64,000 bases of DNA from Caulobacter sp. (GTDB lineage: Bacteria; Pseudomonadota; Alphaproteobacteria; Caulobacterales; Caulobacteraceae): contig NZ_JAGIBH010000004.1 in assembly GCF_017744445.1 (NCBI RefSeq), forward strand, positions 186,001-250,000, read 5' to 3'. A program made the position numbers and the translations under genes. This document shows, in pieces, positions 13,706 through 29,277 of this stretch (the stretch's first letter is position 1; every line of letters begins with the position of its first letter). The notes below the pieces were generated by a model that was not told where the DNA came from, ran no database searches, and was given only the letters and a program-made list of their open reading frames with translations.

Positions 13706-13780
13706 GGTTCGAGCTAGAGTTTAAAAGCTCTCTTTAGAATTGAGCCGGATAGTGCCCGCCAATTGTTGGGGGAGCGCAGA

Positions 13781-14842
13781 ATGCCGTTCAAGACCGTCCG
13801 CATGACCGTGCTGCTGGCGAGCGCCAGCGTGCTGACCGCCTGCGCCAGCCATGACGAGGTCGCCGCCCTGCGCCAGCCGGCCCTGCCGCCGCTGGCCGTG
13901 GCCAAGGCCGCTCCCGCCCGCCCCTACTATCGCAATGTCGCCGTCCAGGCCGTCGAGGGCGCGCCCGAGTTCCGCTGGTTCGATGGCGGCGGCGTCATCA
14001 CCACCCGCCCGACCCGCGCTGAGGTCACCGCCGGCCTGAACAAGCACCTGCTGGGCGCCGAGATGCTGGCGCCGTCGCGCCTCGACGCCGAGTACATGCT
14101 GTACACGACGTTCGAAGACCTGCGCGGCCCCAACGTCTGGTGGGGAACCGACAAGCTGGCCACGGCCCGCGTGACCTTCCGCCTGGTGCGCTGGCGCACG
14201 GGCGAGCTGGTGCGCGAAAAGACCGTCGAGGCCGGCTATAACGTCCACTGGACCGGCGCGACGCCCGAGATCGCGCGAGCGGCCATCGGCGGGGCCCTGG
14301 TCGGCATCGGCCTGGGCTACTACGTCAACCAGAACCACATCGTCGACATCTATGACGCCCCAATCGCCGGCGCCATCGGCGGACTGGAAGCCGCCAGCAT
14401 CGGCGGTCCGCGCCAGTGGGGGCCAGGCTTCGCCAGCGCCTTCACCGCCGCCGTCGCCACCGGCACGGCCGCCGGCCGTTTCCAGGACCTGGAGGCCATG
14501 CTGGCGGGCGGCGCGATCGGCGCGGCTGGCGCCGCGGCGGGTCCCGTGCCTGTTCAGCGGCAGGTCGCCGCGAACGGCGAGATCACCTCCGGCTTCAACG
14601 GCACGCTACGCCGCGCCGCCGCCACGCGCGGCCTGATGGCCCTGGCGTTCGACATGTTCATGAACGATCTCAGCCGCGACGGCTCGGTGGTCTACAAGAC
14701 CGCCGTCTCGTGCCGGGCCCTGAACGGCGACGCCGGCCGCGGCCCCTACCTGGCCGAGACCGCCAACGCCTATGCCGTCGACTGTCCCGGCGCGCGCTAC
14801 AACGACGCCAAGACGGCCAAGGCCTATCCCAGCCGCTTCTAG
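13781..14842 (+). CDS. Predicted outer-membrane-anchored lipoprotein, glycine/alanine-rich centre
   Basis: 353-residue protein with a lipoprotein signal (MPFKTVRMTVLLASASVLTAC, lipobox LTAC), so lipid-anchored and probably periplasmic. The first half (residues about 50-150) has an ABC-type auxiliary-like feel, RLDAEYMLYTTFEDLRGPNVWWGTDKLATARVTFRLVRWRTGELVREKTVEAGY. The middle holds two glycine-rich segments (IGGALVGIGLGYYV; AMLAGGAIGAAGAAAG) that could insert in membrane. I start at ATG 13781, with GGGGGAGCG upstream, not at an in-frame ATG 18 nt earlier. It stands alone between malA and the phage-like block, and its stop overlaps the convergent small lipoprotein gene. I do not recognise the family; function unknown. 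Confidence 0.75.
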   Translation: MPFKTVRMTVLLASASVLTACASHDEVAALRQPALPPLAVAKAAPARPYYRNVAVQAVEGAPEFRWFDGGGVITTRPTRAEVTAGLNKHLLGAEMLAPSRLDAEYMLYTTFEDLRGPNVWWGTDKLATARVTFRLVRWRTGELVREKTVEAGYNVHWTGATPEIARAAIGGALVGIGLGYYVNQNHIVDIYDAPIAGAIGGLEAASIGGPRQWGPGFASAFTAAVATGTAAGRFQDLEAMLAGGAIGAAGAAAGPVPVQRQVAANGEITSGFNGTLRRAAATRGLMALAFDMFMNDLSRDGSVVYKTAVSCRALNGDAGRGPYLAETANAYAVDCPGARYNDAKTAKAYPSRF

Positions 14843-15066
14843 GGTTTCGCCTCCGGCGCTTCGGCCGGCGCGCAGACCCGGGTCACCTTCAGCGACCCGC
14901 CGCCCGGCTGGCCCTTGTCGACGTGCAGGTCGACCGTGCGCTCGCAACCCTCGTTCAGCACCTTGACCGCCTGGGCCAGGGTCACGGGGTCGACGGCCAT
15001 GCCGGCGCAGCCCGACAGGGCCATGGACAGCACAAGGCCCGCCATCGGGCCGATGACGTGTTTCAT
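14839..15066 (-). CDS. Small lipoprotein at the end of the lysis module
   Basis: 75-residue protein with lipobox LSGC (MKHVIGPMAGLVLSMALSGCAG), hence a short lipid-anchored periplasmic peptide with two further cysteines and an acidic, alanine/proline-rich tail. AAGGAG lies seven bases before the ATG. It is the last gene of the leftward phage-like block, 26 bp after the endolysin gene. Its size, lipid anchor and place suggest an outer-membrane spanin (Rz1-like), but no sequence signature proves this; a host lipoprotein is the alternative. Its stop codon overlaps that of the convergent lipoprotein gene. Confidence 0.6.
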   Translation of the reverse strand: MKHVIGPMAGLVLSMALSGCAGMAVDPVTLAQAVKVLNEGCERTVDLHVDKGQPGGGSLKVTRVCAPAEAPEAKP

Positions 15067-15092
15067 CTCTAGCTCCTTGGATTGTTGAAGGA

Positions 15093-15614
15093 TCAGGCCG
15101 CGCGGCCCAGGAAGACCGCGCGCTCGGCCTCGCGCCGGTTCACGAGGCCCGGCAGCTCGCGACCGCCGGCATAGCGCCACATCCGGAAGGCGTCGGCCGC
15201 ACCGACGACGTCGCCAGCGATCAGCCGCCGGCGCACGCTGCTGCTCTCGAAGGCGGTCAGGCCGATGTTGTAGGCCAGGCTGGTCAGCGCCCCCAGTTGG
15301 GCGTCGCTCAGCGGCGTTTTCGGAAACAGCGCCGCGACCTTGTCGCAGACGCGCTGCGCATCAGCCTTCAGCAGCGTATCGGCGTCCGCCCGGATCATCC
15401 CCGCCGGCCACCGCGTGCGCCACAGGCGGTAAGCGGTCTCGCGGTCCTTCACCGGACGACCACCGACGAACAGGGCGTGACCCCAGCCGACGGTATAGAT
15501 CCCGACCGGGTCTGGCTGAGGCTCCAGGATGGCGGTCTTGCGATCGCCGTCGTGCAGGCCCTCGAAGCGCTGGATAAGCGCCAGCGCGCACGCGGGCACG
15601 GCTCGCGTGGTCAT
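15093..15614 (-). CDS. Phage-type endolysin (GH24 muramidase family)
   Basis: 173-residue lysozyme-like protein, within the usual size for T4-type endolysins. The N-terminal catalytic motif is visible: E18 in LIQRFEGLHDGD, then YTVGWGHAL (Gly-Trp-Gly-His typical of the family) and a C-terminal helical part with LTSLAYNIGLTAF and LVNRREAERAVFL, the usual GH24 ending. It would cleave peptidoglycan during release of particles. There is no signal peptide, so it needs a holin; the small two-helix membrane protein 43 bp upstream is the candidate. The ATG 15612-15614 has AAAGGA seven bases before it. Confidence 0.85.
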   Translation of the reverse strand: MTTRAVPACALALIQRFEGLHDGDRKTAILEPQPDPVGIYTVGWGHALFVGGRPVKDRETAYRLWRTRWPAGMIRADADTLLKADAQRVCDKVAALFPKTPLSDAQLGALTSLAYNIGLTAFESSSVRRRLIAGDVVGAADAFRMWRYAGGRELPGLVNRREAERAVFLGRAA

Positions 15615-15657
15615 GGTGATGTCCTTTGATGTTGCGGCGGGATGCTCCCGCCCGCCG

Positions 15658-15879
15658 TCAGGCCTTCTCGGTCGTGACGGTCGTTTCCGGCGAAGCGGCA
15701 CGCGGACCAGTCCGCGTCAGGAAGGTCGCCAGGGCGCCGATGATCACCAGCATGATGTCCTTGGCCGTCGCCCTGGGCTCGAAGAAGACCAGCAGCACCG
15801 CCAGCAGGATCAGGCCCAGCAGCGCGGCGGCGACCAGCACCGTGTCGGCTGACGGATGGAAGTCGCGCAGGACGGTCAT
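15658..15879 (-). CDS. Small two-helix membrane protein, candidate holin
   Basis: 73-residue protein with two hydrophobic segments (VLVAAALLGLILLAVLLVFF near residues 14-33 and DIMLVIIGALATFL near 41-54) separated by a short charged loop, and a polar tail. Size, topology and position directly before the endolysin gene fit a class II-like holin. Its ATG overlaps the stop codon of the preceding gene by four bases (ATGA), so the two are translationally coupled. AGAAGG stands seven bases before the start. Family not recognised by sequence; role from context. Confidence 0.65.
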   Translation of the reverse strand: MTVLRDFHPSADTVLVAAALLGLILLAVLLVFFEPRATAKDIMLVIIGALATFLTRTGPRAASPETTVTTEKA

Positions 15880-16316
15880 GTGACGACCTTCTGTTTCCTT
15901 CGGCGCGGCGACTTGGCGGGCGCGTCGAGGGTGATGACGGTGGCCCTCCCCTCCTCCAGCACGGTCAGGCCGCGCGGGCGCGCGCCCTTGGGGATGTCGA
16001 TGCCGTGGCGGCGGAGGTGCTCCTGCAGGCTCTCGATATGCTGGCGCATCTGGGCGGTCTCGCCACGGCATTGCAGGTTCTCGTTCTCGAGTTCCTCGAC
16101 GCGATGCCGCAGCTGGGCGACCTCTACGGTCAGGGCGTTTCGATCGGCTTGAAGGGCCGCGATGAAGCCCTCGGCCTGGTGACTGAGCGCTGTCTGGAAG
16201 GCCGCCTGGGCGGTCGTGAGATCCGCCGGCGCCTTGGCCCGCGCGGCGAGAAAGGCCCAGAGCCCGCCGCTGCCCATGACGAGCCCCAGCCCCGCGACGA
16301 CCTGTGAGGCAAGGTC
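15876..16316 (-). CDS. Single-pass membrane protein with coiled coil, candidate inner-membrane spanin
   Basis: 146-residue protein: a short hydrophobic N-terminal segment (VVAGLGLVMGSGGLWAFLAA, residues about 7-26), then an extended coiled coil (ALTVEVAQLRHRVEELENENLQ) and a basic C-terminus (KSPRRRKQKVV). Start is a GTG at 16314-16316 with AGGAG six bases upstream. One N-terminal membrane anchor plus coiled coil next to holin and endolysin genes is the plan of Rz-like spanins, although such genes usually follow rather than precede the endolysin. It could also be a phage-associated structural or anti-holin protein. Confidence 0.6.
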   Translation of the reverse strand, partial: DLASQVVAGLGLVMGSGGLWAFLAARAKAPADLTTAQAAFQTALSHQAEGFIAALQADRNALTVEVAQLRHRVEELENENLQCRGETAQMRQHIESLQEHLRRHGIDIPKGARPRGLTVLEEGRATVITLDAPAKSPRRRKQKVVT

Positions 16317-16420
16317 CACTGTACGCTCCTGACCTTTCAGTTCGTTTGGCGATTGATGGCAATGAGACCAGCGATGCGGATCGGTGACCCGCATCGCTGC
16401 GTCGTCCTAGGGCTCTACGA

Positions 16421-16714
16421 TCAGAGCTCGTTGCCCTGGAGGTAGAAGTCGCTCGAGCCGCTCTTGGCGATCACGGTTCCAGCCGGCCAGATCACGGGCA
16501 GTGGGGTGAAAGCAACGCCCGTTGAATAAGCGTAAGGCAGAACCTGAGCGATCCCGTTGACCTTGTAGCCCGGGTTGCCCGTAGGGGAGCCCGACTGAAG
16601 AAACCCGACGAACGTCTTGCCATCGGCAACGGTATAGACCACGGCGCTCGAGGCCAGGGCCGAAGTTTCGACGACGATGAGCCGGCCGCCGCCGGCCGGA
16701 TCCTGCATAGCCAT
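16421..16714 (-). CDS. Small phage-block protein of unknown function
   Basis: 97-residue, beta-rich, alanine/glycine/valine-rich protein (TVADGKTFVGFLQSGSPTGNPGYKVNGIAQ) with no membrane segment or signal. AAAGGAG precedes its ATG by eight bases and it starts 12 bp after the tip/fibre gene, so it is in the same operon. Small genes directly after tail fibres are often fibre chaperones or head-fibre-like decorations; that is a guess from position. Not recognised. Confidence 0.65.
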   Translation of the reverse strand: MAMQDPAGGGRLIVVETSALASSAVVYTVADGKTFVGFLQSGSPTGNPGYKVNGIAQVLPYAYSTGVAFTPLPVIWPAGTVIAKSGSSDFYLQGNEL

Positions 16715-16726
16715 TGTGGCGCTCCT

Positions 16727-18022
16727 TTATTTGGTTTTGATGCCGGTGATCTTGCAGCGGACGGTTCCGTAGTCCGCCGCGAGCTGCGTTGCTGAACCAA
16801 GGGCGATCAGGGCTCCCCCGGCATTCGGGATGCTTGGAATCGTGAACTTGTAGACGACGGCGTCAGTCAGCTTGTTGAAAAGCCAGACAGTCTTGCTGGA
16901 GCCCGTATCGGGATCCAGTGCGAGTACAAGATCCTGATTGTAACTGTTGCTGTAGGGTAGCTCTGACCAAATCTGGGACGAAGAAGTATTATAGCTGTGC
17001 GTGTATAGCGCCTCACCCATCCTGTTTACCCGGACTGGCGAGAAAGTCGTTAGCGGCGCAGTCCCGCAGCTGATGCACGCGAGTCCTTGATCCGCATTCC
17101 CACCATTGTTGTAGTACCCAAAATAGGCTTTGTAGACGCCCGTCGAGGTCTTCGTGATGAACGGCTGACCGATGACTCCAAGTATGGTCGATCCCGAGCC
17201 ATCGGTGTCGTATCGGACAGCGCCCAGGTAGGCGCCCGTCGTCGCGTTGCTAAAGTAGACATTCAATTCGGAATAGATATGCGACATCATTAAGCCGCCG
17301 CGAATGGCGAACGACGAGTACTGATTTGTCAGCTGCACCGTCCCCAGCGTCACATCCGCCAATTGCGTTGACGTCGCGGTGTTGTAGCGCTTCAGGGTCG
17401 ACGCAGACGTGGCCGCATAGATGATCCCGGTCTCGACGTCATAGGCCATGAACCAGACGATCGCCCCACCGAAGAGCGACGTCTCCGCACCCGCTAGGCC
17501 GCCAGCGCGGCGATAGGCGGCGGTCTTGGTGCTGTTACCGCCGTGCGTGTAGTAAAAGTTGCCACTGGCGTCAAAGAAAGCGCAGCGGGGAGATGCGCAT
17601 GCCAGTTGCGGTGAGATCGTCGGACTGGTTGCGGCCGCGCCGAGCGTCGCAAGACTCTGGGGCGAACCGGTCTGCTGCTCCGTGAAAACCGTGGGCTGGC
17701 CCAGCAACGTGTAGCTATTCTGGTTGCCCGTGAAGCGCATGAGGTTGCCGAAGATCGGCAACGCGGCGGTGGACAGCGTGGCGACGGCGTCGGCCTGGAT
17801 GATATCGGACCCAGACAGCCGCCAGCTATAGTCGCAGGGCATGTACGGCCTCCACGAGGAGCCGTTTAGCCGAAGGTTCAGGACCTTCCGACCCGGGTTG
17901 CTCCAGGTGAAATCGCGGATGACCAGACTTTCGTTGGCCGCCAGATCGAAAAGCGTCTGGCCCGCGGCGAGCTGGTTATAGTCGCAGGTGACGTCGCAGA
18001 TGACTTCGGTGGTATCGACCAT
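16727..18022 (-). CDS. Tail tip or receptor-binding protein, low-GC
   Basis: 431-residue protein rich in Ser, Thr, Tyr, Asn and Gly with repeated beta-propeller-like strands (FYYTHGGNSTKTAAYRR, VWFMAYDVETGIIYAATS, SSFAIRGGLMMSHIYSELN, VYKAYFGYYNNGGN). Such compositions are typical of receptor-binding parts of phage tails. The coding region is visibly poorer in G+C than its neighbours (stretches near 16.9-17.3 kb approach one half), suggesting recent exchange of the host-recognition gene. It follows the fibre gene by three bases. I recognise no named family, so binding specificity is unknown. Confidence 0.65.
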   Translation of the reverse strand: MVDTTEVICDVTCDYNQLAAGQTLFDLAANESLVIRDFTWSNPGRKVLNLRLNGSSWRPYMPCDYSWRLSGSDIIQADAVATLSTAALPIFGNLMRFTGNQNSYTLLGQPTVFTEQQTGSPQSLATLGAAATSPTISPQLACASPRCAFFDASGNFYYTHGGNSTKTAAYRRAGGLAGAETSLFGGAIVWFMAYDVETGIIYAATSASTLKRYNTATSTQLADVTLGTVQLTNQYSSFAIRGGLMMSHIYSELNVYFSNATTGAYLGAVRYDTDGSGSTILGVIGQPFITKTSTGVYKAYFGYYNNGGNADQGLACISCGTAPLTTFSPVRVNRMGEALYTHSYNTSSSQIWSELPYSNSYNQDLVLALDPDTGSSKTVWLFNKLTDAVVYKFTIPSIPNAGGALIALGSATQLAADYGTVRCKITGIKTK

Positions 18023-18025
18023 GGT

Positions 18026-18817
18026 CTAGAAAACTCCGTGTTTCATCAGGTAGGCGACCGGGACTTCGACGGGTTCGGGAGCCCATTCGAAGTCGAAGTC
18101 TGACGTGGATTTTTTCTTCAGCAGGTAGCCCTTCGCGCCACCCGTGGGGGTGCCGATGCCGGGAATGCCCTGCACGCCCTGCACGCCGGGCACCCCGCCG
18201 ATGCTGATGTTCCAGTTGCTGACCGAGCCGCTGCCGCCGGCCTGGGTGACGGCCACCGTCAGGGTCGCGCCGGCGTAAGACGTGCAGACGCCGACCATGA
18301 ACTTGGTCGGATCGCCTTGCGCGACGGCATAGATCGGCATGCCCTCGACGAAGCTTTCGTTGGCGTCGACGGTCCAGGTCTTGGTCCCCGTGCCCAGCGT
18401 GTTGGCGGTCAGAGACTTGGTCGAGAACGAGACGCCCGAGGCGACGTTCTGGATCTGGGTCAGGGTCGCGACGGCCTCGCTGGCCTTGGTGGTCGCGATG
18501 CCGGCTTGGGTGGTGGCCAGGGTCACTTGCCCGGCGGCCAGGGTCACCTGCCCCGCCGCCAACGTGACCTGGGCCGCCGCGAGCCCGACCTGATCGGCCG
18601 CCTGGGTGGCCTTGGCTGTCGCCGTCGCCGCCGAAGCCGCGGCGGCGGCCTTGTCCGCCGTGACCTGGACGGCTAGGCCGTAGACCTCGGTCGAGAGCGC
18701 ATTTGTCTCGGTCACGAAGGTCGGCATCTGTCCCAGGAAGGCGTCGGCCCTGGTGTTGAAGTTGGCGGGATCGTTGGTGGATGGCGGCGTCGGGAACGCC
18801 GTGATCTGTGCGGGCAC
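18026..18817 (-). CDS. Tail fibre protein with heptad repeats and short collagen-like segment
   Basis: 263-residue fibre. After an N-terminal PPSTNDPANFNTRADAFL segment typical of phage fibre attachment ends, there is an alanine/threonine-rich coiled coil including four seven-residue repeats around QVTLAAG (residues about 75-105), a beta-rich head (TKTWTVDANESFVEGM), a short collagen-like run (GVPGVQGVQGIPGIG, near residue 210) and a C-terminal tip. Trimeric coiled coil plus collagen-like triplets is usual in phage fibres. Start is GTG (18815-18817) with GAGGTC eight bases upstream, overlapping the end of the preceding gene's region. It precedes the variable tip protein gene. Confidence 0.78.
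   Translation of the reverse strand: MPAQITAFPTPPSTNDPANFNTRADAFLGQMPTFVTETNALSTEVYGLAVQVTADKAAAAASAATATAKATQAADQVGLAAAQVTLAAGQVTLAAGQVTLATTQAGIATTKASEAVATLTQIQNVASGVSFSTKSLTANTLGTGTKTWTVDANESFVEGMPIYAVAQGDPTKFMVGVCTSYAGATLTVAVTQAGGSGSVSNWNISIGGVPGVQGVQGIPGIGTPTGGAKGYLLKKKSTSDFDFEWAPEPVEVPVAYLMKHGVF
18516..18599 (-). repeat. Four 21-bp tandem repeats inside the fibre gene
   Basis: Units 18516-18536, 18537-18557, 18558-18578 and a weaker 18579-18599 encode the QVTLAAG-type heptads of the fibre coiled coil. Such repeats can change fibre length by slippage or recombination. Confidence 0.75.
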
Positions 18818-18821
18818 GGGG

Positions 18822-19970
18822 TCAGACCTCTTCGAGTTCGAGGGAAATCAGGGCGTCATCGGGCTGGTCCATGTTGATCGTGAACCGCTTGTAGACACCG
18901 ACGATGAGCAGGGCCGCGAAGTAGCCGCTCTCCTGGTCGTCCAGGCCCGACCACAGCGCCGGCACGGCGTTGAGGTCGTCGCGCAGCTGCAGGACCCGAT
19001 CGACGTCGGTCTTGCGGCAGCGCAGGGTCTGGACGGTGCGCGGCACCGAGCGGCGGGGCACCAGGGCGGCGGTCCCGAAGTCGTCGCGATCGATCTTCGA
19101 GAAGTTCAGGGCGTCGCTTTCGGCCTGGTGCTGGGTGGCGCCCAGATAGACCGACGTGCCCAGCACCACGCCGCCGCAGGTCACGGGACCGTTGGCCCTG
19201 GTCAGGGTGATGGTGATGACGGCGTTGGTGTACGGCGGCAGGTCGAAGCGCGCGAACTCCTGCCGGTAGCGGAACGCGCCGAAGAAGTAGTCGTACCAGC
19301 CGCTGGTCGGCCGGTTCAGCAGGTTGGCCGAGGCGGTGTAGACCGTCGCGCCGGCCACCGTGACCGTGACGGAAACCGTGTCGGCGACGATGCCGACGAC
19401 GCCGATCGAGTCCACGCGCTGGCCCGGCGTCAGCGACACCGTCAGCGGCGAGGCCGTGGTGGTGCCGGTGTTGCGCAGCAGGTCGAACATCGCCCAGCGG
19501 CTGGTCGGGCCGATGTCGGTCCACCAGCTGTCGCCGGTCGTGGCCGGGTTCTGACCCAGGTTCGCGGTCGTCGCCACGGTGTGCGAACCGCTCTGCGTCC
19601 CGCTACCCGAAAGCGGGGAACCACCGGCGCTGGCGGCGACCTTGAAGGTGTTCGCCGTATCGGCCAGCACGTAGTAGGTCGTCCCGGCGGCGATGGCCGA
19701 AGGCAGCGCGCCCGTCGTCGAGAACACCACCGGCGTGTCCGCGACGAGACCGTGGCCAGCCCAGGTCACAACGCCGTTCGAAGCGATCGTCACGTTGGCG
19801 ATCTTGCGGGCGACCGCCTCGTAAAGGCGGTGAGTGGTCGGGCTGAAGACCTTGTCGCCGTTCTTGTAGGCCGTGGTCGCGCTCCAGGCCGCCTCCCCTG
19901 CCGAGGGTTCGGCGCAGGTGGTGCTGGTCAGGATGGCGGGCGTGATCGTGATGGGAGGAAGCGCGCGCAT
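18822..19970 (-). CDS. Distal tail / minor tail protein with carbohydrate-binding-like module
   Basis: 382-residue protein encoded directly after the tape measure (its ATG overlaps the tape measure stop, TGATG), the usual place of the distal tail or baseplate hub protein. Residues about 28-55 (AWSATTAYKNGDKVFSPTTHRLYEA) resemble a small CBM5/12-type carbohydrate-binding module. The middle is beta-rich with SLTPGQRVDSIGVVG and WYDYFFGAFRYRQEFARFDLPPY, and the C-terminal half (RRSVPRTVQTLRCRKTDVDRVLQLRDDL) resembles the conserved part of phage minor tail proteins. It likely joins the tube end to the fibre. Assignment is by position and general resemblance, not a proven family. Confidence 0.65.
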   Translation of the reverse strand: MRALPPITITPAILTSTTCAEPSAGEAAWSATTAYKNGDKVFSPTTHRLYEAVARKIANVTIASNGVVTWAGHGLVADTPVVFSTTGALPSAIAAGTTYYVLADTANTFKVAASAGGSPLSGSGTQSGSHTVATTANLGQNPATTGDSWWTDIGPTSRWAMFDLLRNTGTTTASPLTVSLTPGQRVDSIGVVGIVADTVSVTVTVAGATVYTASANLLNRPTSGWYDYFFGAFRYRQEFARFDLPPYTNAVITITLTRANGPVTCGGVVLGTSVYLGATQHQAESDALNFSKIDRDDFGTAALVPRRSVPRTVQTLRCRKTDVDRVLQLRDDLNAVPALWSGLDDQESGYFAALLIVGVYKRFTINMDQPDDALISLELEEV

Positions 19971-22900: not shown

Positions 22901-24085
22901 CTTCTCCCGATTGAGTTCCGAGCCTGCGCGCCCCCCCGCAGTCGAAAGGCGGCGATCCCGATAGGTTCCGCGTGGCCCGGTCTTCTCCGTGACGACCCCA
23001 TCTTGCAGGTCCGCCAAACGCGCTTCGGCGCCCGCTTTCTTGGCCATTAAGTCCGCACGGGCGACCTCATAGGTCGCCTTCGCTCGATCCAGCTGAGCCT
23101 TGGTGTACTCCTTGACGTTCACCGTGACCCCAGGCGTCGGGTCCTGACTCAAGATGTTGTTGAGGTCAGATATGGCTTTGGCCGAGATATCGCTCGCACC
23201 AGCTGCAGCGGTGGACGACTGGGCCGCATCACGCTGAGCGAACGCGAGCGCCGCCACGCCGGCGATCAACGCACCGACGACCAAGCCAATCGGACCACCG
23301 ACCGCCCCCAGGAGCGCGGCGCCCAGCCCTCGAGACGCGACGGCCGCCTCGGTCGTCGCCGCCGTCGCGACCACAGCGGTTTCCGCGGCTATGACATTCT
23401 TGGCCGCAGCCTCGGTCGCGGCAGCGGCCTGCAGATGCAACGCGCCGGCGGCGCCTCCTGAAGCGGCCGCGAGCGACACATTGGCCGACGCCGCCTCTCC
23501 AGCCGAGGCCGCAGCGATCTTGGAAACAAGGGTCTGCGCAGCCTGCGCGCCTGCGATCGTGAGGAGGCTCGCCGCCAGACTTCCGGCTGAACCGCCAAGC
23601 TGGCCAAGGACGCCACCCAGATCCGCGCCGTCGATTTTTGCCTTCACAAGAACCTTGGAAACGTCAGCGGTCTTGGCGGCCAACGTCTTCAAGGGATCTT
23701 CGCCTGATGCGATCTTGGCGAACGTATCGATCAGGACACCGCTCAGCTCCTTGGCAGCGTCGCGCGAGGCTTTCAGCTGATCGGCGCTCGCTTTTGCGGC
23801 GGCTTCCGTCGTCTTCAATGCGCTGCTGGCTGGCGCCTGGACCTTGGCGATCTCTGCTTGAGCCAGCGCAGCCGCCCGGGTAGCCGCCGCGTGATCGTTC
23901 AGACTCTTGGTGATGGCGCTGAGATCCGTCGCCCCCCGCGATGCTTGCTTGTTCAAGTCGGCGATCGCCGCAGCCAAGCGGTCGGCAGCCTGCGTCGCGG
24001 TGCGCTGCGCCGAAGCCAACGAGTCCGTTGCGCGAGCAGATTTGCCCAACTGCGAGATCAGCTCATCCAGATCCTTGTCAGCCAC
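19970..24085 (-). CDS. Tail tape measure protein
   Basis: 1371-residue, largely helical, Ala/Lys/Glu-rich protein, the largest in the block. It has coiled coils at both ends, two hydrophobic glycine-rich zones (GGPIGLVVGALIAGVAALAF near residue 265; IIPGIGNVAGAAIGAVLGGI near 650) and the usual non-repetitive helical filler. In long-tailed phages this protein sets tail length, about 0.15 nm per residue, which would predict a tail near 200 nm. Start is GTG (24083-24085) with GGGAGAG seven bases upstream. It follows the G/GT chaperone gene, exactly the order in siphophages. Frame is intact, so the block is not simply decaying. Confidence 0.92.
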   Translation of the reverse strand: MADKDLDELISQLGKSARATDSLASAQRTATQAADRLAAAIADLNKQASRGATDLSAITKSLNDHAAATRAAALAQAEIAKVQAPASSALKTTEAAAKASADQLKASRDAAKELSGVLIDTFAKIASGEDPLKTLAAKTADVSKVLVKAKIDGADLGGVLGQLGGSAGSLAASLLTIAGAQAAQTLVSKIAAASAGEAASANVSLAAASGGAAGALHLQAAAATEAAAKNVIAAETAVVATAATTEAAVASRGLGAALLGAVGGPIGLVVGALIAGVAALAFAQRDAAQSSTAAAGASDISAKAISDLNNILSQDPTPGVTVNVKEYTKAQLDRAKATYEVARADLMAKKAGAEARLADLQDGVVTEKTGPRGTYRDRRLSTAGGRAGSELNREKGAAQAAIDAANGGIANLDVGYERASKAIVAHGKELQKAQAATIVHTQAVKGHTAALSAEDEAWSRGAQSSKDFADALSEEIATMGLSNEEIRRRQINLEILKAPTSQLHDRLVELRDQWEQQTAVTRGAEEAQRAVAAQQRETLHTMREIIGDGPHFSTIFEDVAEALAKNVAQADATRISIEGIATALNKNDWTGALGSMVGLLGQLEKAFGKTGTAADKFTALAGVAQGVGGIVGGRTGSAISGAASGALGGMSLVASLAAAGTIIPGIGNVAGAAIGAVLGGIGSLFGSSKAKKQAKAQAAAEEAQRQAQIAAQGYDLDIQIAEASGDTATAKRLRRQQTLNGIAPANQARQQQLFDIEDAKQREADIKSVNEALASLGMVFSTVGDATDAARERLVKLSGGLEELTAQTAFFAEHFLSEDERLKPVKESVTGELARLKLPTDLTRDGFAKTVLGLDVSTEAGAELYAAMMKLAPAFDKVATAAETTKAAVDDKAKSIQDRIDDLVMKPADKLAKSRAAEEEAVKALDASLLPLLKTLWAVEDAATVAAEAAEKEAKDKALARDRSNALADLWDAQGYTDLAKNMRRDLALAEVEDDVQKDYMRRTWAAQDAAEKVSAARDVLTQAYEREQEAIQATKDKFKELSASLRTFSGSLTDTIAGTDPGARYRRTRETFLSTAAMARLGDPDAMGRLQSEGEAFTAASRDYVSTSLDYLRDVGLVRNAVDEAADTADRQVSIAQRQLDALDASVQGLIQINASVVSVEQAIFSLRGALAAARSAGVVSVDGSNLGLGNPAPPTTGSGAGGSAVDLTKTLDGKYNYDAMLGQMAYTESLRDPAFYAEHNIPFEVMIPGTQAYSLLQTFKVRNKDQYDYLEYQRLIQGYATGGSFEVGGSGPPDSKFFGLALSPGEAVNVQRADQKGDRALIQELQRLRAELAELRATSARIATSNDKMERTLTNVTEGGRAMQTQAAA

Positions 24086-24145
24086 AACGGCTCTCCCAAA
24101 AAGTTCGGGCCGCGCCTCGGTGAAGAGGCGCAGCCCGGTTGGTGG

Positions 24146-24936
24146 TCAGCCGCCCTTGGCGGGGGCCGTCATCGTCAGAAGGTGTTCGGCGTCCAGGGCG
24201 ATCAGGGCCCGGCGTTCCCACGGCTCCAGCCGCACGCCCTCGTCGCGTTCCCAGGCCTGGATCTCCAGGCGCGAGAGGCGCGAGGGGCCAAAGCCGCCCG
24301 ACTGGCGGGTCTGGCACAGGTCGGCGTACCAGCCCCAGAGGTGGGCGACGTACGACGACAGCGGCGGCGGGTTGGCGAGCCGCCAGGTCGCTTCCGGATC
24401 GCCCTGGCGGGCCAGGCTCTCCAAGTGCGTCCGCAGCGGCTCGCCGTCATCCTGCCGGCCGGCGAGCTCGAACTGCTCGCGGGCATAGGCTGTCAGGCCG
24501 CGGACTTGCCCGGCATAAAATTTCCGAGGGTGTTCGAGGCCGTGGTGACCTGCTCGGCGATCTCGGAATTGCGGCTGACCAGGCGGAAGGCGTTCTCGGC
24601 CGACCACTCCTGCTTGATGCCGCGCCAGCCGACCAGGCGGATGGCGGTCAGGCGGTGGCCGAAGGCGATGTCGTCCTCGATCGGCGTGAAGTCGGCCTTT
24701 TCGGGGTTCGAGCGGCCGGTCATGGCGGCGGCCACGGCCTGCTTCTTGCGGCGATCGTTGACGAGGCGGTTCACCTCGCCTTGCACCTTCTCGGACTGGC
24801 CGCCCAGCACCAGCAGGAAGACGCCGGAGCCGCTGCCATCGGCGCGGATGTACTCGACTTCGAAGGGCGTATCGCCGGCGGCGACGGCGTCGAGGTCGTT
24901 CAGGTCGAACAGGGTTTCGGTCGAGAACTTGGTCAT
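24146..24936 (-). CDS. Tail assembly chaperone GT fusion made by -1 ribosomal frameshift
   Basis: Predicted 263-residue fusion: residues 1-140 come from the upstream frame (24936-24517), then ribosomes slip -1 at A-AAT-TTT and read TAT GCC GGG onward to the stop at 24146, adding 123 residues (YAGQVRGLTAYAREQFELAG...). The downstream frame has no convincing start of its own: its first in-frame ATG (24607) lies deep inside the upstream gene without a ribosome site. In lambda and most long-tailed phages the minor GT product binds the tape measure through T and the tube protein through G. The gene pair lies between tube and tape measure genes, as expected. Slippage is predicted, not shown. Confidence 0.85.
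24493..24936 (-). CDS. Tail assembly chaperone G (unshifted product)
   Basis: 147-residue major product of the chaperone gene, ending seven codons after the slippery site (NFMPGKSAA). The sequence is beta then helical (FEVEYIRADGSGSGVFLLVLGGQSEKVQGEVNRLVNDRRKKQAVAAA) and resembles phage G proteins that coat the tape measure before tube polymerisation. The ATG 24934-24936 is preceded by AAGGACAAAGCGAC. It lies between the tail tube gene (89 bp upstream) and the tape measure gene. Confidence 0.82.
   Translation of the reverse strand: MTKFSTETLFDLNDLDAVAAGDTPFEVEYIRADGSGSGVFLLVLGGQSEKVQGEVNRLVNDRRKKQAVAAAMTGRSNPEKADFTPIEDDIAFGHRLTAIRLVGWRGIKQEWSAENAFRLVSRNSEIAEQVTTASNTLGNFMPGKSAA
24517..24523 (-). 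other. Programmed -1 frameshift slippery heptamer
   Basis: On the coding (minus) strand the heptamer is A AAT TTT in the zero frame, a canonical X-XXY-YYZ site: both tRNAs re-pair after a one-base backward slip (AAT to AAA, TTT to TTT). It lies in the last 30 nt of the G frame and leads exactly into the open T frame. Confidence 0.85.
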
Positions 24937-25025
24937 GTCGCTTTGTCCTTGGGAAAAGGACGGCCGGGCGCGACCCGGCCGTTGAGTTGAGGGGACTTTA
25001 GAGGGAGGGAGAAGGGCCGGGCCGG

Positions 25026-26240
25026 TTAGGCGGCGCTGTCCTGGATGGCGACGATGGTCTGGTCGGTGGCCAGGGTCGCGCCGCCGGCGCTGTTGATCTG
25101 GGCCGTGAACGGATAGGTCCGGATCACCGCCTTCTCGCCGTCGTCGGGGGTGTCGCCGGTCAGCTTGATCATCGGCAGGTTGATGACCACGAAGTCGGCG
25201 TTGGCCGTGGCGTCCTCGGTGATGGCCAGCACCAGCGAGGTGGTCGAGCGGCCGTCGAAGATCGACTGCAGCGAAACGCTGTCGAACTTGGCCGTGAACG
25301 AGCCCGATACGGCGAGGCGGCCGCGCTGAATGTCGTCCACGACGTTCGAGCCCACCACGGCGTCGCTGTGGGCGGCGTTGCCGTTGATGGTCACCTGGGC
25401 GCCGGTGACATTGGCCACGGGCGCGCCGTTGACCAGGATCACGCCGTTGACGGCCGTCAGGATGTCGGTGCCCGTCTCGGCGGCCGGCGAGGTCAGCACC
25501 TGGGCGGCGCCTAGGGTGCGGGTGCGGCCGACGGTGTCGAGGCTGATGGTGGCGTTGCCGGTGGCCGGAAGGTTCAGCGCGGCCTGGCCCACCTGCTGGT
25601 CAGCATAGGTTTCCGAGCGGCCCAGGTCCGGATACCACTCCTCGAAGGTGTAGTAGTCGTTGGTGTGGGCGGTCAGCGGGACCAGCGACTTCTTGCCCGA
25701 GACGGCGACCGTGGCGCTGGCGATACTGGTCTCGGCGAACATGGCCGAGCCATTGATCACGCGCACCGTGGCGACCGTGGCGGTCAGGGCGATGACCAGC
25801 AGGTTCTTCTGGGTGTTCAGGGCGTTGAAGGCGCCGGCGGTCAGGCGGACGACGTCACCGATCTTGAAGCCGTCGGTCAGATACGAGCCGGCGGCGCGGG
25901 TCAGGGTCCAGTTCTGGCCCGAGGCGGCGACGCTGATCGTGGCGCCGGTGGCCGAGACGCCCGTGGTCATGTCCTTGCGCAACAGCGAGGCCAGCAGGGC
26001 CGCGTACGAGCCCGGCGACAGCAGGCCGTCGATCTTGCCGGCCGGCTTGACCACGCCCAGGCCAACGCCCGTCGACTGCTGGTGGCTGACGATCTCGTTG
26101 CTTTCGAAGGTGTCCGGCGGGGCCTGGAACACCGAGCTGGTGCGGCGGACGATCTGACCGCCCGTACCGGTCGCGGCGGCGCCGAGGCCGGCCTGCTTCT
26201 TGTAGACGGTCTTCTTGTTGATGCCCTGGGCGACTGCCAT
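25026..26240 (-). CDS. Major tail tube protein
   Basis: 404-residue structural protein of the phage tube family (the MAVAQGINKKTVYKKQAGLG start and the ESNEI-HQQ pattern are typical of Phage_tube_2-like proteins of long-tailed phages). The core is beta-rich; residues about 95-190 form a repeated Ig-like insert (VVRLTAGAFNALNTQKNLLVIALTATVATV), common as surface decoration on tail tubes. A strong AGGAGAAG precedes the ATG. It lies between the tail terminator and the tail chaperone genes. Frame intact. Confidence 0.85.
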   Translation of the reverse strand: MAVAQGINKKTVYKKQAGLGAAATGTGGQIVRRTSSVFQAPPDTFESNEIVSHQQSTGVGLGVVKPAGKIDGLLSPGSYAALLASLLRKDMTTGVSATGATISVAASGQNWTLTRAAGSYLTDGFKIGDVVRLTAGAFNALNTQKNLLVIALTATVATVRVINGSAMFAETSIASATVAVSGKKSLVPLTAHTNDYYTFEEWYPDLGRSETYADQQVGQAALNLPATGNATISLDTVGRTRTLGAAQVLTSPAAETGTDILTAVNGVILVNGAPVANVTGAQVTINGNAAHSDAVVGSNVVDDIQRGRLAVSGSFTAKFDSVSLQSIFDGRSTTSLVLAITEDATANADFVVINLPMIKLTGDTPDDGEKAVIRTYPFTAQINSAGGATLATDQTIVAIQDSAA

Positions 26241-26318
26241 GGGGATCTTCTCCTGGGAAGTTATCGGGATGGGTGGAGGGGCTGGACGGAAGACCGTCCC
26301 TTCGGGCGGAGGCCGCCG

Positions 26319-26723
26319 TCAGCTGGTGATCGTGGCCAGGAACGGGACCTGAACGGGCACGACGTAGCGGTCGCCCTCCAGGATCGCGGCCAGGATGAGA
26401 GGGGTGCGGGCGACCTGGGTGGTCAGGCCGTCGGACGTGAAGGCCGCGCCGCGCGGGAAGGTCGCGCGCAGCAGCTCGATACGAGCGGACAGGTCGGCCA
26501 TGCCGGCGCCCTGCGGCCAGCACAGCGCGACGACGAACATGCCGCCCTGCTGGAAGCCGCGCCCGTACTCGGTGTTGACCGGCGGCTCGAACAGCATCGA
26601 TGCGCGCTGGTACGGCGCGCCCGCCGTCGGCGTGTAGGCGGTGTTCTCCCAAGCAGTGGCCAGGGCGGGGCTCATGGCGGCCAGCGCTGTCTCCAGCGCC
26701 GCGCGGATCTTCAGCACGCTCAT
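26319..26723 (-). CDS. Tail terminator/completion protein (DUF4128-like)
   Basis: 134-residue protein with the pattern of the phage DUF4128 family: IRAALETALAAMSPALATAWENTAYTPTAGAPYQRASML, then GRGFQQGGMFVVALCWPQGAGMADLSARIELLRATFPRG and a closing VPVQVPF strand. In this family it caps the finished tail and normally joins it to the head. I start at ATG 26721-26723, because upstream codons do not match the family. It is the first structural gene of the block, following a 281-bp gap that may hold the structural promoter. Its presence without any head gene is notable. Confidence 0.82.
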   Translation of the reverse strand: MSVLKIRAALETALAAMSPALATAWENTAYTPTAGAPYQRASMLFEPPVNTEYGRGFQQGGMFVVALCWPQGAGMADLSARIELLRATFPRGAAFTSDGLTTQVARTPLILAAILEGDRYVVPVQVPFLATITS

Positions 26724-27004
26724 CGGCGGCCCGCCGGCAGACAGGCGAGCGGAGGCGTTCCCGGAGCCGCATGGCTCCCGGCGACGGGATCGAGGGTCAT
26801 GTCTGGGTTCCTGAACAGGCAGGCGAGACGACAACCCCGCCCTTGAACGAAGGACGGGGTCGCGGGCGGTCCGTCGCTCAAATCGAGCGTCGGGTCCGGA
26901 AGAGATCGAAGGTTCGGATTTTTAGTCTTCGGAGGTCAAAAGCGCCGTCATAGGCACATCTCCGAGAATGATCAGATTAGACCATCTACCTTCCCGACGG
27001 TCAA
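26724..27004. promoter_or_regulatory. Gap between regulatory and structural modules of the phage block
   Basis: 281 bp with no convincing gene, relatively AT-rich near 26.89-27.0 kb. It contains a hairpin (separate entry) and, on the minus strand, a tiny open frame MTALLTSED (start 26957 region) with GGAG eight bases before it. This is the likely site of the promoter for the structural operon, but no sigma-factor box stands out. Confidence 0.4.
26835..26859 (-). terminator. Hairpin between regulatory and structural modules
   Basis: Ten-base-pair stem (26835-26844 with 26850-26859) with one G-U wobble in the minus-strand transcript and a 5-nt loop. It lacks a U-run, so it may be a weak terminator or processing site rather than a strong intrinsic terminator. 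Confidence 0.4.
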
Positions 27005-27652
27005 TCAATTTGCTCGATAAACGTTCCTATTCTTGCGGTCGCGAGCGATCTGCTTGGCCATGGCCACGATCAGGTCCAGAACCTCGACCAGGACTTCGCG
27101 ATTACGGGTGAAAGCGCGGCCGGCGCCCCAGACCGACAGACTGGTCCCCTCGCCCACCACCGAGCGCAGCAGGCGCAAGGCCATGGGCTTGTCGGCCAGC
27201 GACATGGCCACGGCGCGGTCGGCGCGAGCCACGAAGTCCAGCATGCGGGCGCGACGCAGCCGGGCGGCGACGAAGCGGTCGTTGTCGTGGCCGCCGCCCC
27301 CACCGCCACTCAAGCGCCCGGGCTCCAGGCTGGCGGCGCGCAAGTCACGGCCGCGGGCCTCGAAACCGACGCGGTACAGCAGGCCGACGGCATAGTGCGC
27401 GTCGGTGATGCGGCCGCCCTGGCGCAGGCTGCGCAGGCCGTCGCGGCTGGAGATCCGCAAGCCGCCGGCGCCGGTATCGATCTGCTCGCCCCGCGCGCGG
27501 GCCAAAGCCGCGGTCTCGATCAGGCCAGCGGCGATCTCGGCCTCCTCGCTGCGCGCCAGCTGAGCGCCGGCGATACGCAGCACGGTCTCGCGCGCCGCCT
27601 GGCGGGCGGCGGGACTGATGGCCAGGACGGCGGCGCGATCGGCGCGGGCCAT
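27005..27652 (-). CDS. Phage-block regulatory-module protein, unknown function
   Basis: 215-residue soluble protein, arginine/alanine-rich (VARADRAAVL..., GLIETAALARARGEQIDTGAGGLRISSRDGLRSLRQGGRITDAHYAVGLLYRVGFEARGRDL). The DAHYAVGLLYR stretch and the C-terminal RLLRSVVGEGTSL segment are helical and look conserved, but I cannot name the family. The first ATG (27650-27652) has no good ribosome site; an ATT codon 18 codons upstream (27706) has AAGGGG ahead of it and would add ISVQVIRPEGLTSAELAD. It is the third gene of the leftward regulatory operon. Confidence 0.65.
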   Translation of the reverse strand: MARADRAAVLAISPAARQAARETVLRIAGAQLARSEEAEIAAGLIETAALARARGEQIDTGAGGLRISSRDGLRSLRQGGRITDAHYAVGLLYRVGFEARGRDLRAASLEPGRLSGGGGGGHDNDRFVAARLRRARMLDFVARADRAVAMSLADKPMALRLLRSVVGEGTSLSVWGAGRAFTRNREVLVEVLDLIVAMAKQIARDRKNRNVYRAN

Positions 27653-27733
27653 GTCGGCCAGCTCGGCGGAGGTCAGCCCCTCGGGACGGATGACTTGGAC
27701 GCTAATGGCGGTCCCCTTCTCGTTTGGAAAATC

Positions 27734-27949
27734 TCAGCGCCCGAACCGGACGCCGCGTCGGTTTTCGGCCAGGGCGTGGCGCCGGGCCTCGCCGGCGCAG
27801 ACCTGGGCGACGAAGTCGTGGCCTTCACTCTCGGCCAGCATCCGGCCGGCGGCGCGGATGATGGCGCACAGCATCGGCTTGCGTGGCCCGCAGGCCTGGA
27901 CGGCGCGGTCGATGGCCCCTTGCGCGACCTCGTCCTGCAGGCCGCTCAC
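27734..27949 (-). CDS. Small protein of the phage regulatory operon
   Basis: 71-residue protein (VSGLQDEVAQGAIDRAVQACGPRKPMLCAIIRAAGRMLAESEGHDFVAQVCAGEARRHALAE) predicted helical, with no membrane segment. The start is taken as GTG 27947-27949, whose first bases overlap the preceding stop codon (GTGA), implying translational coupling. Not recognised; position suggests a regulator or accessory factor of the phage block. Confidence 0.6.
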   Translation of the reverse strand: MSGLQDEVAQGAIDRAVQACGPRKPMLCAIIRAAGRMLAESEGHDFVAQVCAGEARRHALAENRRGVRFGR

Positions 27950-28359
27950 CCGCCCTGCTCCTCCAGGACGGCGCGGCCGGCCGCCGTCAGGCTGACCCGG
28001 CACGGACGACCGCCGAGACGCTCGACCAGGCCGATCAGGCGCGCGGCCTGGGCGCGGTCGCTGCCGGCCGACAGGCTGACGGCCATCTCGTCGGCCAGGT
28101 CCGCCAGGGTCAGCGGGCCGTCGGCCAGGGCCTCCAGCACGGCCAGCACCTTGGCCGGCACGACAGGCTCATCCGGCAGGACGCCGAACAGGCGGGTGCG
28201 GATCGCCTCCGACAGCGCGTAGCGGTCAGGGCGCGGATCGCCCATCAGCAGGCCGGTGAGAATGGCGCGCGGGCGCCGACGGTCGGCCTCGGTGCGGCGG
28301 GCCGTATAGACGTGAAAGGTCGCATGACCGGCCGGACCGGTCGCGTGGATCGGAATCAT
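27946..28359 (-). CDS. Winged-helix-like regulator of the phage block
   Basis: 137-residue protein. The C-terminal half (VLAVLEALADGPLTLADLADEMAVSLSAGSDRAQAARLIGLVERLGGRPCRVSLTAAGRAVLEEQ) has the spacing of a MarR-like winged helix: helix, helix-turn-helix, wing. The N-terminus is basic. ATG 28357-28359 has AGGAAG eight bases upstream. It is the first gene of the leftward operon and is divergent from the XRE gene, with two abutting operator-like sites between them, the arrangement of a phage genetic switch. The DNA-binding role is inferred. Confidence 0.65.
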   Translation of the reverse strand: MIPIHATGPAGHATFHVYTARRTEADRRRPRAILTGLLMGDPRPDRYALSEAIRTRLFGVLPDEPVVPAKVLAVLEALADGPLTLADLADEMAVSLSAGSDRAQAARLIGLVERLGGRPCRVSLTAAGRAVLEEQGG

Positions 28360-28454
28360 CTGGAGCTTCCTGCGGCTTGAGCCGATGGATGGGGAATTTC
28401 GGGGGAGACCCCGCCCGGCTCGCGTCGCCAGGGCGAAGTTCTCGGAATATCCAA

Positions 28455-28488
28455 TTTGTACCAAATACAAATTTGCATGGCAAGCAAA
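28455..28488. promoter_or_regulatory. Two abutting 17-bp operator-like palindromes in the switch region
   Basis: Site A 28455-28471 reads TTTGT-N7-ACAAA and site B 28472-28488 reads TTTGC-N7-GCAAA; they touch without a gap. Extended arms are perfect (AATTTGTA/TACAAATT for A with 5-bp spacer; AAATTTGC/GCAAATTT for B with 7-bp spacer). They lie in the 181-bp gap between the divergent regulator genes, so one protein binding here could control both promoters. Confidence 0.75.
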
Positions 28489-28540
28489 TTTTGTGTTTAA
28501 TGGCCGGACATTCTCCCTTTCGCTCGCATCTGGGATTTGC

Positions 28541-28885
28541 ATGACACCCGACCGGCAGGCCAAGGCGAAACGGCGCGGCAAGACCTTCATCCGCGCCTGG
28601 CGCAAGCATCGCGACCTGAACCTGGAGCAGGCCGTCGAACGGCTGGAGCTGGAGGTCGGCTACCCCTATTCGGTAGCCCAGCTGTCGCGTGTCGAACGCG
28701 GCGAGACCGGCTATTCGCAGGACGTGCTGGAAGCGCTGGCGACCATCTATCGCTGCGAGCCTGCCGACCTGATCATGCGGGATCCGGAAGCCTCCGAAGG
28801 AATCTGGTCGATCTGGGACCAGCTCCAGCCCGTTCAGCGGCTGCAACTGGTCGAGATCGGACAAACCCTGAAAAAGGTGGGATAA
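28541..28885 (+). CDS. XRE-family helix-turn-helix regulator
   Basis: 114-residue DNA-binding protein of the Cro/CI type: FIRAWRKHRDLNLEQAVERLELEVGYPYSVAQLSRVERGETGYSQDVLEALATIYRCEPADLIMRDP is a complete XRE domain with the R-x-E-x-G recognition-helix region. No peptidase or dimerisation domain is fused, so it is not a LexA/CI-type cleavable repressor. Start is ATG 28541, with only a weak ribosome site. It is the only rightward gene of the phage block, divergent from the winged-helix operon, and is the best candidate for binding the TTTGY-N7-RCAAA sites. Confidence 0.85.
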   Translation: MTPDRQAKAKRRGKTFIRAWRKHRDLNLEQAVERLELEVGYPYSVAQLSRVERGETGYSQDVLEALATIYRCEPADLIMRDPEASEGIWSIWDQLQPVQRLQLVEIGQTLKKVG

Positions 28886-28892
28886 TTCCCAC

Positions 28893-29147
28893 CTAGTCCA
28901 ACGCCAGGATCTCGCCCTGGCGCGCGATCAGCGCAGGCTTGCCCCAAAGGCCTGACAGCGGCTCGCCCCGCACGCGATACAGCGCCACGCCCGACGATCG
29001 CCGCCCCAGGACCTCCATCTCACGCCGGGCATCCTCCTCGAAGTAGCACTCCCGAACCTCGGTCGGCTGGAGCGTTCCACCCCGCCTCCCGAACGCCTGT
29101 ACGCAGAACCGCGTCACCGCGAACACGACAACCTCCGCCTTCAACAC
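28893..29147 (-). CDS. Small protein under the same operator type, unknown function
   Basis: 84-residue protein if started at GTG 29147 (LKAEVVVFAVTRFCVQAFGRRGGTLQPTEVRECYFEEDARREMEVLGRRSSGVALYRVRGEPLSGLWGKPALIA): alpha/beta, with a reasonable coding character throughout. The exact start is uncertain; an ATG at 29246 gives 33 more residues but would run through an operator-like site. Convergent with the XRE gene, 7 bp apart. Two TTTGC-N7-GCAAM sites lie upstream, tying it to the phage block. Family not recognised. Confidence 0.55.
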   Translation of the reverse strand: MLKAEVVVFAVTRFCVQAFGRRGGTLQPTEVRECYFEEDARREMEVLGRRSSGVALYRVRGEPLSGLWGKPALIARQGEILALD

Positions 29148-29224
29148 CCCTACTCTGCACGCCTCTTTCGCGTGAGTCGACGGGTCGCGGCGGCGCGTAC
29201 GTCCGAGTCTGACGTGTGTTAATT

Positions 29225-29277
29225 TTTGCACATGAGGCAAATTCAAGAGTACGAGTTAGATTTGCATGTAGCGCAAC
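29225..29277. promoter_or_regulatory. Two further TTTGC-N7-GCAAM operator-like sites
   Basis: Site C 29225-29241 (TTTGC-N7-GCAAA) and site D 29261-29277 (TTTGC-N7-GCAAC) share the arms and 7-bp spacer of sites A and B at 28455-28488. They precede the 84-residue gene and lie between it and the tRNA gene. Confidence 0.6.

Follow-up and report, generated by a model that had tools for sequence, protein, structure and literature searches.

Positions 14839-29241 of the window, a stretch of 64,000 nucleotides of a Caulobacter genome, hold on the minus strand a siphophage block reduced to the tail, together with genes for lysis and for its own regulation, which raises the question of what use a phage tail without a head might be to the cell that encodes it. 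Judged from its genes, the block most likely yields phage tails without heads, lethal to related bacteria, and probably represents an F-type tailocin locus (flexible, non-contractile) that its host has domesticated. An F-type tailocin was also the reading of the initial annotation, and it is supported by the shared genomic site, the lack of head genes, purifying selection and the differing fibres. All of the parts named there were found with intact reading frames, and the gene span of 14839-29147 given there stands, with the right edge moving to 29241 once a second operator is counted.

The tail genes, all on the minus strand, comprise a tail terminator of 134 aa (26319-26723; PF13554, 9e-21; phrog_179), a tail tube of 404 aa (25026-26240; PF18906, 7e-21; phrog_290), a tail assembly chaperone in a first frame (24493-24936; phrog_313) and a second, overlapping frame (24146-24607; PF23812), a tape measure of 1371 aa (19970-24085; phrog_7740 and phrog_25966) and a distal tail protein of 382 aa (18822-19970; phrog_6278), whose relative DMCA_017 comes directly after the tape measure gene of the Caulobacter phage DMCA and which returned nothing in a sequence search of the PDB. 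The single distal tail protein had been regarded as a gap in the tailocin reading; this worry falls away, given that DMCA and JY42, complete phages of the same lineage, possess an equally short tip. A fibre shaft of 263 aa (18026-18817) shares its N-terminus with the other copies and with DMCA_018, the remainder being variable, and is followed by a fibre or receptor-binding protein of 431 aa (16727-18022) and a fibre-associated protein of 97 aa (16421-16714), both assigned by position and absent from the other copies searched. Between copies at least three fibre types occupy one position; the fibres diverge between species, as does the greater part of the tape measure, and the length of the tape measure ranges from 1371 to 1784 aa across sister species.

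The lysis genes, also on the minus strand, include an endolysin identified as a phage lysozyme by PF00959 (15093-15614; E 3e-30), the holin and spanins being candidates. By hydropathy, the protein at 15876-16394 (phrog_2658; start possibly 16319) combines a single membrane helix with a coiled coil; the initial annotation had a candidate holin, but this protein is rather inner-spanin-like and a hydrophobic candidate of 73 aa at 15658-15879 (hydrophobic segment 14-32), present among the loci compared in this window only, had been missed. The PHROGs match of the inner-spanin-like protein carries the name hol-like chemotaxis, despite its build. An outer-spanin-like lipoprotein of 75 aa (14839-15066), found at 71-79% in other copies, has the residues LSGC, presumably a lipobox-like motif. 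Scans with Pfam and PHROGs profiles gave no match to head, portal, terminase, protease, replication, integrase or sheath families among the block proteins scanned, bearing out the absence of head, packaging, replication and integrase genes reported earlier, and no head protein of DMCA or JY42 matched the 64 kb window. The gene set is that of an F-type tailocin: a non-contractile tail with its tape measure, no sheath and lysis genes, maintained by selection. The three fibre proteins, r215, r2 and an 84-aa protein (the last three described below) had no family match passing the cut-off, and the block contains no known toxin or immunity gene.

No head genes were found in any copy of the block, the block having been checked by profiles and the genome at large in part. 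In related phages and prophages, head genes adjoin the same tube type: the nearest head-bearing viral contigs (L135 and L138) contain a terminase, a portal and a major head protein. The proteins of DMCA and JY42 that match the window and the copies of the block are tail proteins only, and L008, L009 and L040 match head proteins too. At least one head or head-tail-connector match was present in 51 of the 80 viral-contig loci and none in 29; given that many of these 29 are short or divergent, an absent head match was counted only for five contigs in which r215 is followed by the tail terminator. In the own genome the only portal recognised by Pfam is on another contig, within a probable gene transfer agent (GTA) cluster that has its own tail protein, and the block was accordingly rejected as the tail of this GTA; it lacks the head and packaging genes of a gene transfer agent.

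The block stands beside tRNA-Met and panD at an identical site in 7 of the 75 genus genomes searched, so that the comparison of synteny with and without head genes, proposed with the initial annotation, yielded a tail-only block at a fixed site and headed related phages and prophages. Given that six other species have the identical gene order and place, the arrangement is beyond chance. The block is nonetheless dispensable: it was not found at the tRNA-Met site in 39 other genomes, and the tail has been lost in one genome (G012). Median dN/dS was 0.18 for the tube, 0.21 and 0.22 for the chaperones (values distorted by the overlapping frames), 0.27 for the terminator and 0.22 for the lysozyme, ratios by which these genes are evolving under purifying selection. 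Divergence is uneven between genes (dS 0.22 for the tube and 0.50 for the repressor), so the history of the block likely includes exchange between species. In a tree of the tube the tail-only copies cluster, with a support of only 0.38. No att-site duplication was seen: not one stretch of 12 bases from the tRNA-Met gene is repeated in 14001-17000.

It could be argued that the block is a decaying prophage remnant in which tail and lysis genes have been kept by chance, given that G012 has lost its tail genes at this very site and that solitary holin-like genes, possibly leftovers, stand at 9 of the 39 other sites read. However, this is very unlikely, as every frame is open, the structural and lysis genes are under purifying selection across species and the gene order is identical in seven species; the earlier argument from open frames against decay is thereby borne out, selection and synteny weighing likewise. 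G012, which lacks the tail but has kept the regulators, the outer spanin and a holin-like gene, also bears on a second alternative, that of a domesticated tail or lysis device serving some other purpose, for instance adhesion or the release of cell contents, in place of tail-mediated killing. The retention of the lysozyme and outer spanin alongside the tail would suit such a role, yet tailocins have been described as pairing a conserved tube with swapped fibres (PMC13195805), as seen here, which leaves this alternative with little probability.

The tail might instead serve as a donor part, joined to the heads of another phage or element for gene or phage transfer. A complete tail terminator has been retained, and headed prophages with related tubes occur in the genus (G004); however, terminators are retained by tailocins too. 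Furthermore, a search for the portal of DMCA, the nearest isolated phage, detected the headed prophage of G004 but gave nothing in the nine genomes that carry the block, a remnant or a relative, and the sole portal that Pfam finds in the own genome is part of a set that includes a separate tail protein, making a donor role highly improbable. The DMCA terminase was likewise not found in the nine genomes, in a search without a positive control.

The divergent regulator pair of the initial annotation proved in fact to be four regulatory genes: a divergent XRE repressor candidate of 114 aa (28541-28885, plus strand; PF13560, median dN/dS 0.065) and three consecutive genes on the minus strand (28359-27005). 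These are r3 (27946-28359), a winged-helix regulator candidate of 137 aa with sub-threshold HTH matches that is retained in 8 genomes; r2 (27734-27949), a small protein of 71 aa with a median dN/dS of 0.18; and r215 (27005-27652), an activator or antiterminator candidate present in 10 of the 75 genus genomes. A block-associated gene of 84 aa (28893-29147, minus strand) without a Pfam match occurs in the 8 genomes with regulators at the site and had no match in the 39 other sites. The whole genome has three occurrences of the operator TTTGC-N7-GCAAA, two of them within the block: at 28472-28488, between the repressor and r3, in 8 of 8 genomes with regulators at the site, and at 29225-29241, ahead of the 84-aa gene, with exact matches in G061, G030, G025, G018 and G013 and not in G026 or G012. 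Between the regulators and the tail genes stand a promoter-like site and a hairpin, both conserved and on the minus strand. The late-promoter candidate (TTGAC, N17, TCTAAT; 26975-27004) recurs in 12 of 14 sequences, from some of which the pattern was itself derived; a consensus promoter and terminator scan showed no excess over shuffles and did not call this site. The leader hairpin (26824-26860), a possible terminator, folds in 8 of 8 sequences (z -2.1 to -5.4), each folded singly, the stems being out of register in the MAFFT alignment.

The DNA-damage induction implicit in the checks proposed with the initial annotation finds no support in that form. A Pfam scan found no S24 or other peptidase domain in the XRE repressor, and SOS control of the F-pyocin type, through an S24 repressor or a LexA box at a promoter, was not found. 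GTTC-N7-GTTC is a LexA-type box, and its only exact occurrence, at 26340 in a scan for exact matches only, falls within the tail terminator gene; given that neither promoter has such an exact box, induction by mitomycin C is not assured. The repressor was also considered as an orthologue of RogA of the GTA system and rejected on its differing domain layout, RogA having 213 aa and a peptidase-like domain.

Directly upstream of the late promoter, r215 may be a distant relative of DUF6456 (PF20057), the family to which the GTA activator GafZ belongs. Profile comparison gave a score of 43.1 against 17.3 for the best of 100 shuffles, and profile against profile the match stood at 83.6% and 75.3%, or 1.9% and 17.8% with fewer sequences; hmmscan of r215 against PF20057 gave no match even at E 10. 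A model of r215 from 67 sequences reached a pLDDT of 87.9 and a pTM of 0.70, a structure from the single sequence being useless (pLDDT 38.4). The GafZ-bearing frame of the own genome returned nothing in a sequence search of the PDB. A longer relative of r215 stands upstream of the terminase in a headed prophage, and the order of r215 then tail terminator is repeated in the five viral-collection contigs mentioned above. The switch for the block is perhaps a protein distantly related to the activator of GTAs.

It is suggested that the block goes back to a prophage with a tail of the DMCA/JY42 lineage, which shed its head module, probably from between a late regulator and the terminator gene of the tail, and whose remainder was then fixed next to tRNA-Met. 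As long as the cell is at rest, the XRE repressor, bound at the TTTGC-N7-GCAAA operators, would silence both the operon of regulators and the gene of 84 aa; upon its release r3, r2 and r215 would be produced, and r215, acting at the late promoter, may enable RNA polymerase to read through the leader hairpin and on into the genes for tail and lysis. A headless tail of about 200 nm would then be assembled by the terminator, tube, chaperones and tape measure, the producer would be lysed by holin, lysozyme and spanins, and the fibres would attach to related strains, whose envelope the tip would breach. A further-reaching proposal, that this is a genus-level F-type tailocin produced suicidally under a processive antiterminator homologous to GafZ, with the tape measure swapped along with the fibres, is a tentative one and somewhat doubtful. 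If true, headless weapons and GTAs in Alphaproteobacteria would share one type of late-gene switch from phage ancestors, and tape-measure exchange would give sister species tails of different lengths, about 205 nm for 1371 aa and 268 nm for 1784 aa by the rule of 0.15 nm per residue.

F-pyocins of Pseudomonas aeruginosa likewise consist of a headless siphophage-type tail, lambda-like, with fibres and lysis genes, and are controlled by PrtN/PrtR with a RecA-sensitive repressor; the block differs in its tube lineage and in its short repressor without a peptidase domain. The carotovoricin tail is contractile and R-type, unlike that of the block. Nevertheless, carotovoricin of Pectobacterium is described as having a genus-wide shared gene neighbourhood and exchanged tail fibre loci (PMC13195805). 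Closer in kind is rhizoviticin of Allorhizobium vitis, by its own account the first F-type tailocin from Alphaproteobacteria, which also encodes a flexible tail without a head, along with lysis genes, and occupies a single genomic position in several strains (PMC10811719). It keeps an integrase remnant, as well as replication genes needed for its expression, neither of which the block has, and is described as SOS-dependent; the block spans species, its control looks different, and the likeness drawn here is one of gene content and placement. The Caulobacter GTA with GafY/GafZ is also a chromosomal phage-derived lytic system with an activator operon under a repressor, and r215 would be a putative distant relative within the family of its activator, but it has heads and packs DNA (as described in PMC11150451 and PMC9632790). 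Phage DMCA (PQ480021) shares a tube 65% identical, a related distal protein and fibre N-terminus and one short tip protein, and differs in that it is a whole phage: it has a terminase, an integrase, portal-like and head genes and a tape measure of 792 aa.

No Caulobacter tailocin was described in the titles and abstract openings of the literature searched on Caulobacter and alphaproteobacterial tailocins and bacteriocins. F-type tailocins are rarely described and Caulobacter is a model genus, in which this locus provides a testable switch (operator, promoter, hairpin and r215), a natural tail deletion in G012 and, in its copies, a natural series of fibres and tape measures. It raises the questions of what determines tail length and target range, and whether an antitermination switch is common to tailocins and GTAs.

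An order-wide search with the tube in 299 evenly drawn genomes returned seven matches, three of them in Caulobacter (the own genome, G026 and G023) and four distant, at 22-37% identity. The tape measure was also matched in genus genomes that lack the cassette, namely G004 (the headed prophage), G032, G035 and G062, and one further genome of the genus has a related block at another place.

The block at 14839-29241 on the minus strand is best read, with a good degree of confidence, as a domesticated F-type tailocin, given its content, its site, the absent head genes, the selection on its frames and the differences among its fibres; the particle, its killing activity and its switch are predictions. 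The genome that holds the window (G000:C115:186001-250000) is 5.34 Mb in size. From 29147 to 14839, the minus strand encodes an 84-aa protein, three small regulators (r3, r2 and r215; 28359-27005), and then the tail set: terminator, tube, two chaperones in overlapping frames, a tape measure (1371 aa), a single distal protein (382 aa) and the three genes of the fibre region. After these come an inner-spanin-like protein, a holin candidate of 73 aa, a lysozyme and an outer-spanin-like lipoprotein. A candidate XRE repressor of 114 aa lies on the plus strand (28541-28885). The reading frames are open, and the last block gene overlaps the flanking gene at 13763-14842 by four bases. Tube proteins 82-97% identical occur in three named Caulobacter strains and a Caulobacterales MAG. 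If the block is a tailocin, it would be a further alphaproteobacterial case beside rhizoviticin, from which it differs in a more settled layout and, apparently, in its switch.

Head and tail proteins of DMCA (PQ480021) and JY42, complete phages with related tails, were compared against the window, the block copies and several prophage loci. Only tail proteins matched in the window and the copies, whereas at L008, L009 and L040 head proteins were matched upstream of the tube. The DMCA terminase was found in none of 12 genomes, a search without a positive control since the prophage-bearing genome G004 was among the misses; the DMCA portal matched in one of the 12, G004, and in none of the nine genomes with a block, remnant or relative. 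Within the block's own genome, the Pfam portal model identified one place, on a different contig, together with a terminase, a major head protein and a tail protein of 1225 aa (phrog_4271), a set which we take, from its layout, to be the gene transfer agent (GTA) cluster.

Searches of 75 genomes of the genus gave 12 with a tape-measure match and ten with an r215 match. Seven (G000, G013, G018, G025, G026, G030 and G061) share the site and gene order of the block, which is flanked on one side by tRNA-Met and panD and on the other, where within reach, by a TonB receptor gene, often also gene 13763; the G061 contig stops within the fibre gene, leaving its lysis genes beyond view. At this site G012 retains the repressor, r3, r215 and a partial r2, together with a holin-like gene and the outer spanin, with no tail genes, and G023 has a related tail-only block at a different place (tube 82%, r215 49%) and none at panD. 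In 59 genomes panD is present and neither block nor remnant is; none of the 39 of these sites that were read, five of them as stretches shorter than 7 kb, contained a block regulator or tail gene. At three of the 39 sites, tRNA-Met and gene 13763 are less than 2 kb apart, revealing the locus in its block-free state. The opposite border of the block showed no repeat of the tRNA gene. A solitary gene for a holin-like membrane protein, with a relative in the cassette of G023, occupies the site in nine of the 39 genomes and in G012 (L090-L097 and L099, beside tRNA-Met/tonB; L058; L042), and is either a remnant of earlier cassettes or a gene of the host.

The collection of viral contigs yielded 82 loci with a gene for a tube relative, of which 80 were kept. 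Five (L130-L134) place r215 before the tail terminator, as in the window. One of these, L130 (IMGVR_UViG_3300025303_000083), also carries the bacterial gene panD beside the cassette and is therefore probably a chromosome listed as a virus. The closest head-bearing loci, L135 (84%) and L138 (81%), encode a terminase, portal and major head protein. In the tube tree the tail-only copies cluster, adjoining L135/L136, at a node support of only 0.38.

Median dN/dS values (Nei-Gojobori, excluding G023 and DMCA) were 0.18 for the tube (21 pairs), 0.27 for the tail terminator, 0.32 for the distal protein, 0.22 for the lysozyme (15 pairs), 0.28 for r215 (28 pairs) and 0.065 for the repressor, with 0.22 and 0.21 for the chaperones, values distorted by their frame overlap; the 0.65 of the tape measure tests nothing, as the sequence aligns poorly. 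The dS of the tube (0.22) is close to that of flanking tonB (0.24) and panD (0.22), and that of r215 and the repressor is 0.44 to 0.50, so the block genes do not have a single common history, in agreement with a separate comparison of distances.

Fibre types vary at one position: 263, 431 and 97 aa in the window, a 242-256-aa shaft with a glycine-rich 378-382-aa tip in G025 and G026, and a 537-547-aa fibre in G013, G018 and G030. The initial annotation had seen a gap in the scarcity of distal tail proteins; this objection falls away, given that in DMCA and JY42, both complete phages, a single protein of about 300 aa likewise separates the tape measure from the fibre, which makes the short tip a trait of the lineage. 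The tape measure (19970-24085) is a mosaic with a swapped middle: the last 600 or so residues are kept across copies, the first 200 show weak likeness and the middle mostly has no detectable likeness to the window's version. Among sister species its length at the block site runs from 1371 to 1784 aa.

The candidate activator or antiterminator r215 (27005-27652) gave no Pfam match, even at E 10. Against a 50-member alignment of DUF6456, the family of the GTA activator GafZ, it scored 43.1 (probability 83.6%), where the best of 100 column shuffles reached 17.3; another r215-family alignment gave 75.3%, and fewer sequences 1.9% and 17.8%. Immediately after r215 stands a promoter-like TTGAC, 17 bases and TCTAAT, with small variants, in 12 of 14 sequences (absent from G023 and G012), a pattern derived from some of the same 14. 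About 115 bases further, a hairpin folds in all eight sequences analysed, despite their differing letters, and 0 to 6 of 200 shuffles fold equally well. PMC11150451 describes GafZ of C. crescentus as travelling with RNA polymerase and enabling it to pass a terminator that follows the first gene of the GTA cluster. By analogy, r215 may let RNA polymerase pass the leader hairpin. Among 7995 scored proteins r215 has 103 matches, itself included; in a headed prophage of G059, a longer relative (L060 16564-17625) is encoded upstream of the genes for terminase, portal and head protease. This points to a broader family of phage late regulators across the Caulobacterales.

The inverted repeat TTTGC-N7-GCAAA, a putative operator, occurs in the gap that separates the repressor from r3 and a second time ahead of the 84-aa gene, two occurrences in the window against 0.05 expected, and three in the genome against one for the reversed pattern. 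An exact copy of the first is present in each of the eight genomes that carry the regulators at this site, and one of the second in six of them, G026 and G012 lacking it. No S24 domain was found in the repressor, and exact matches to a LexA-type box were absent from both promoters, the single one in the window falling within the terminator gene (26340). The 84-aa gene (28893-29147) accompanies the block with an operator of its own and a median dN/dS of 0.13.
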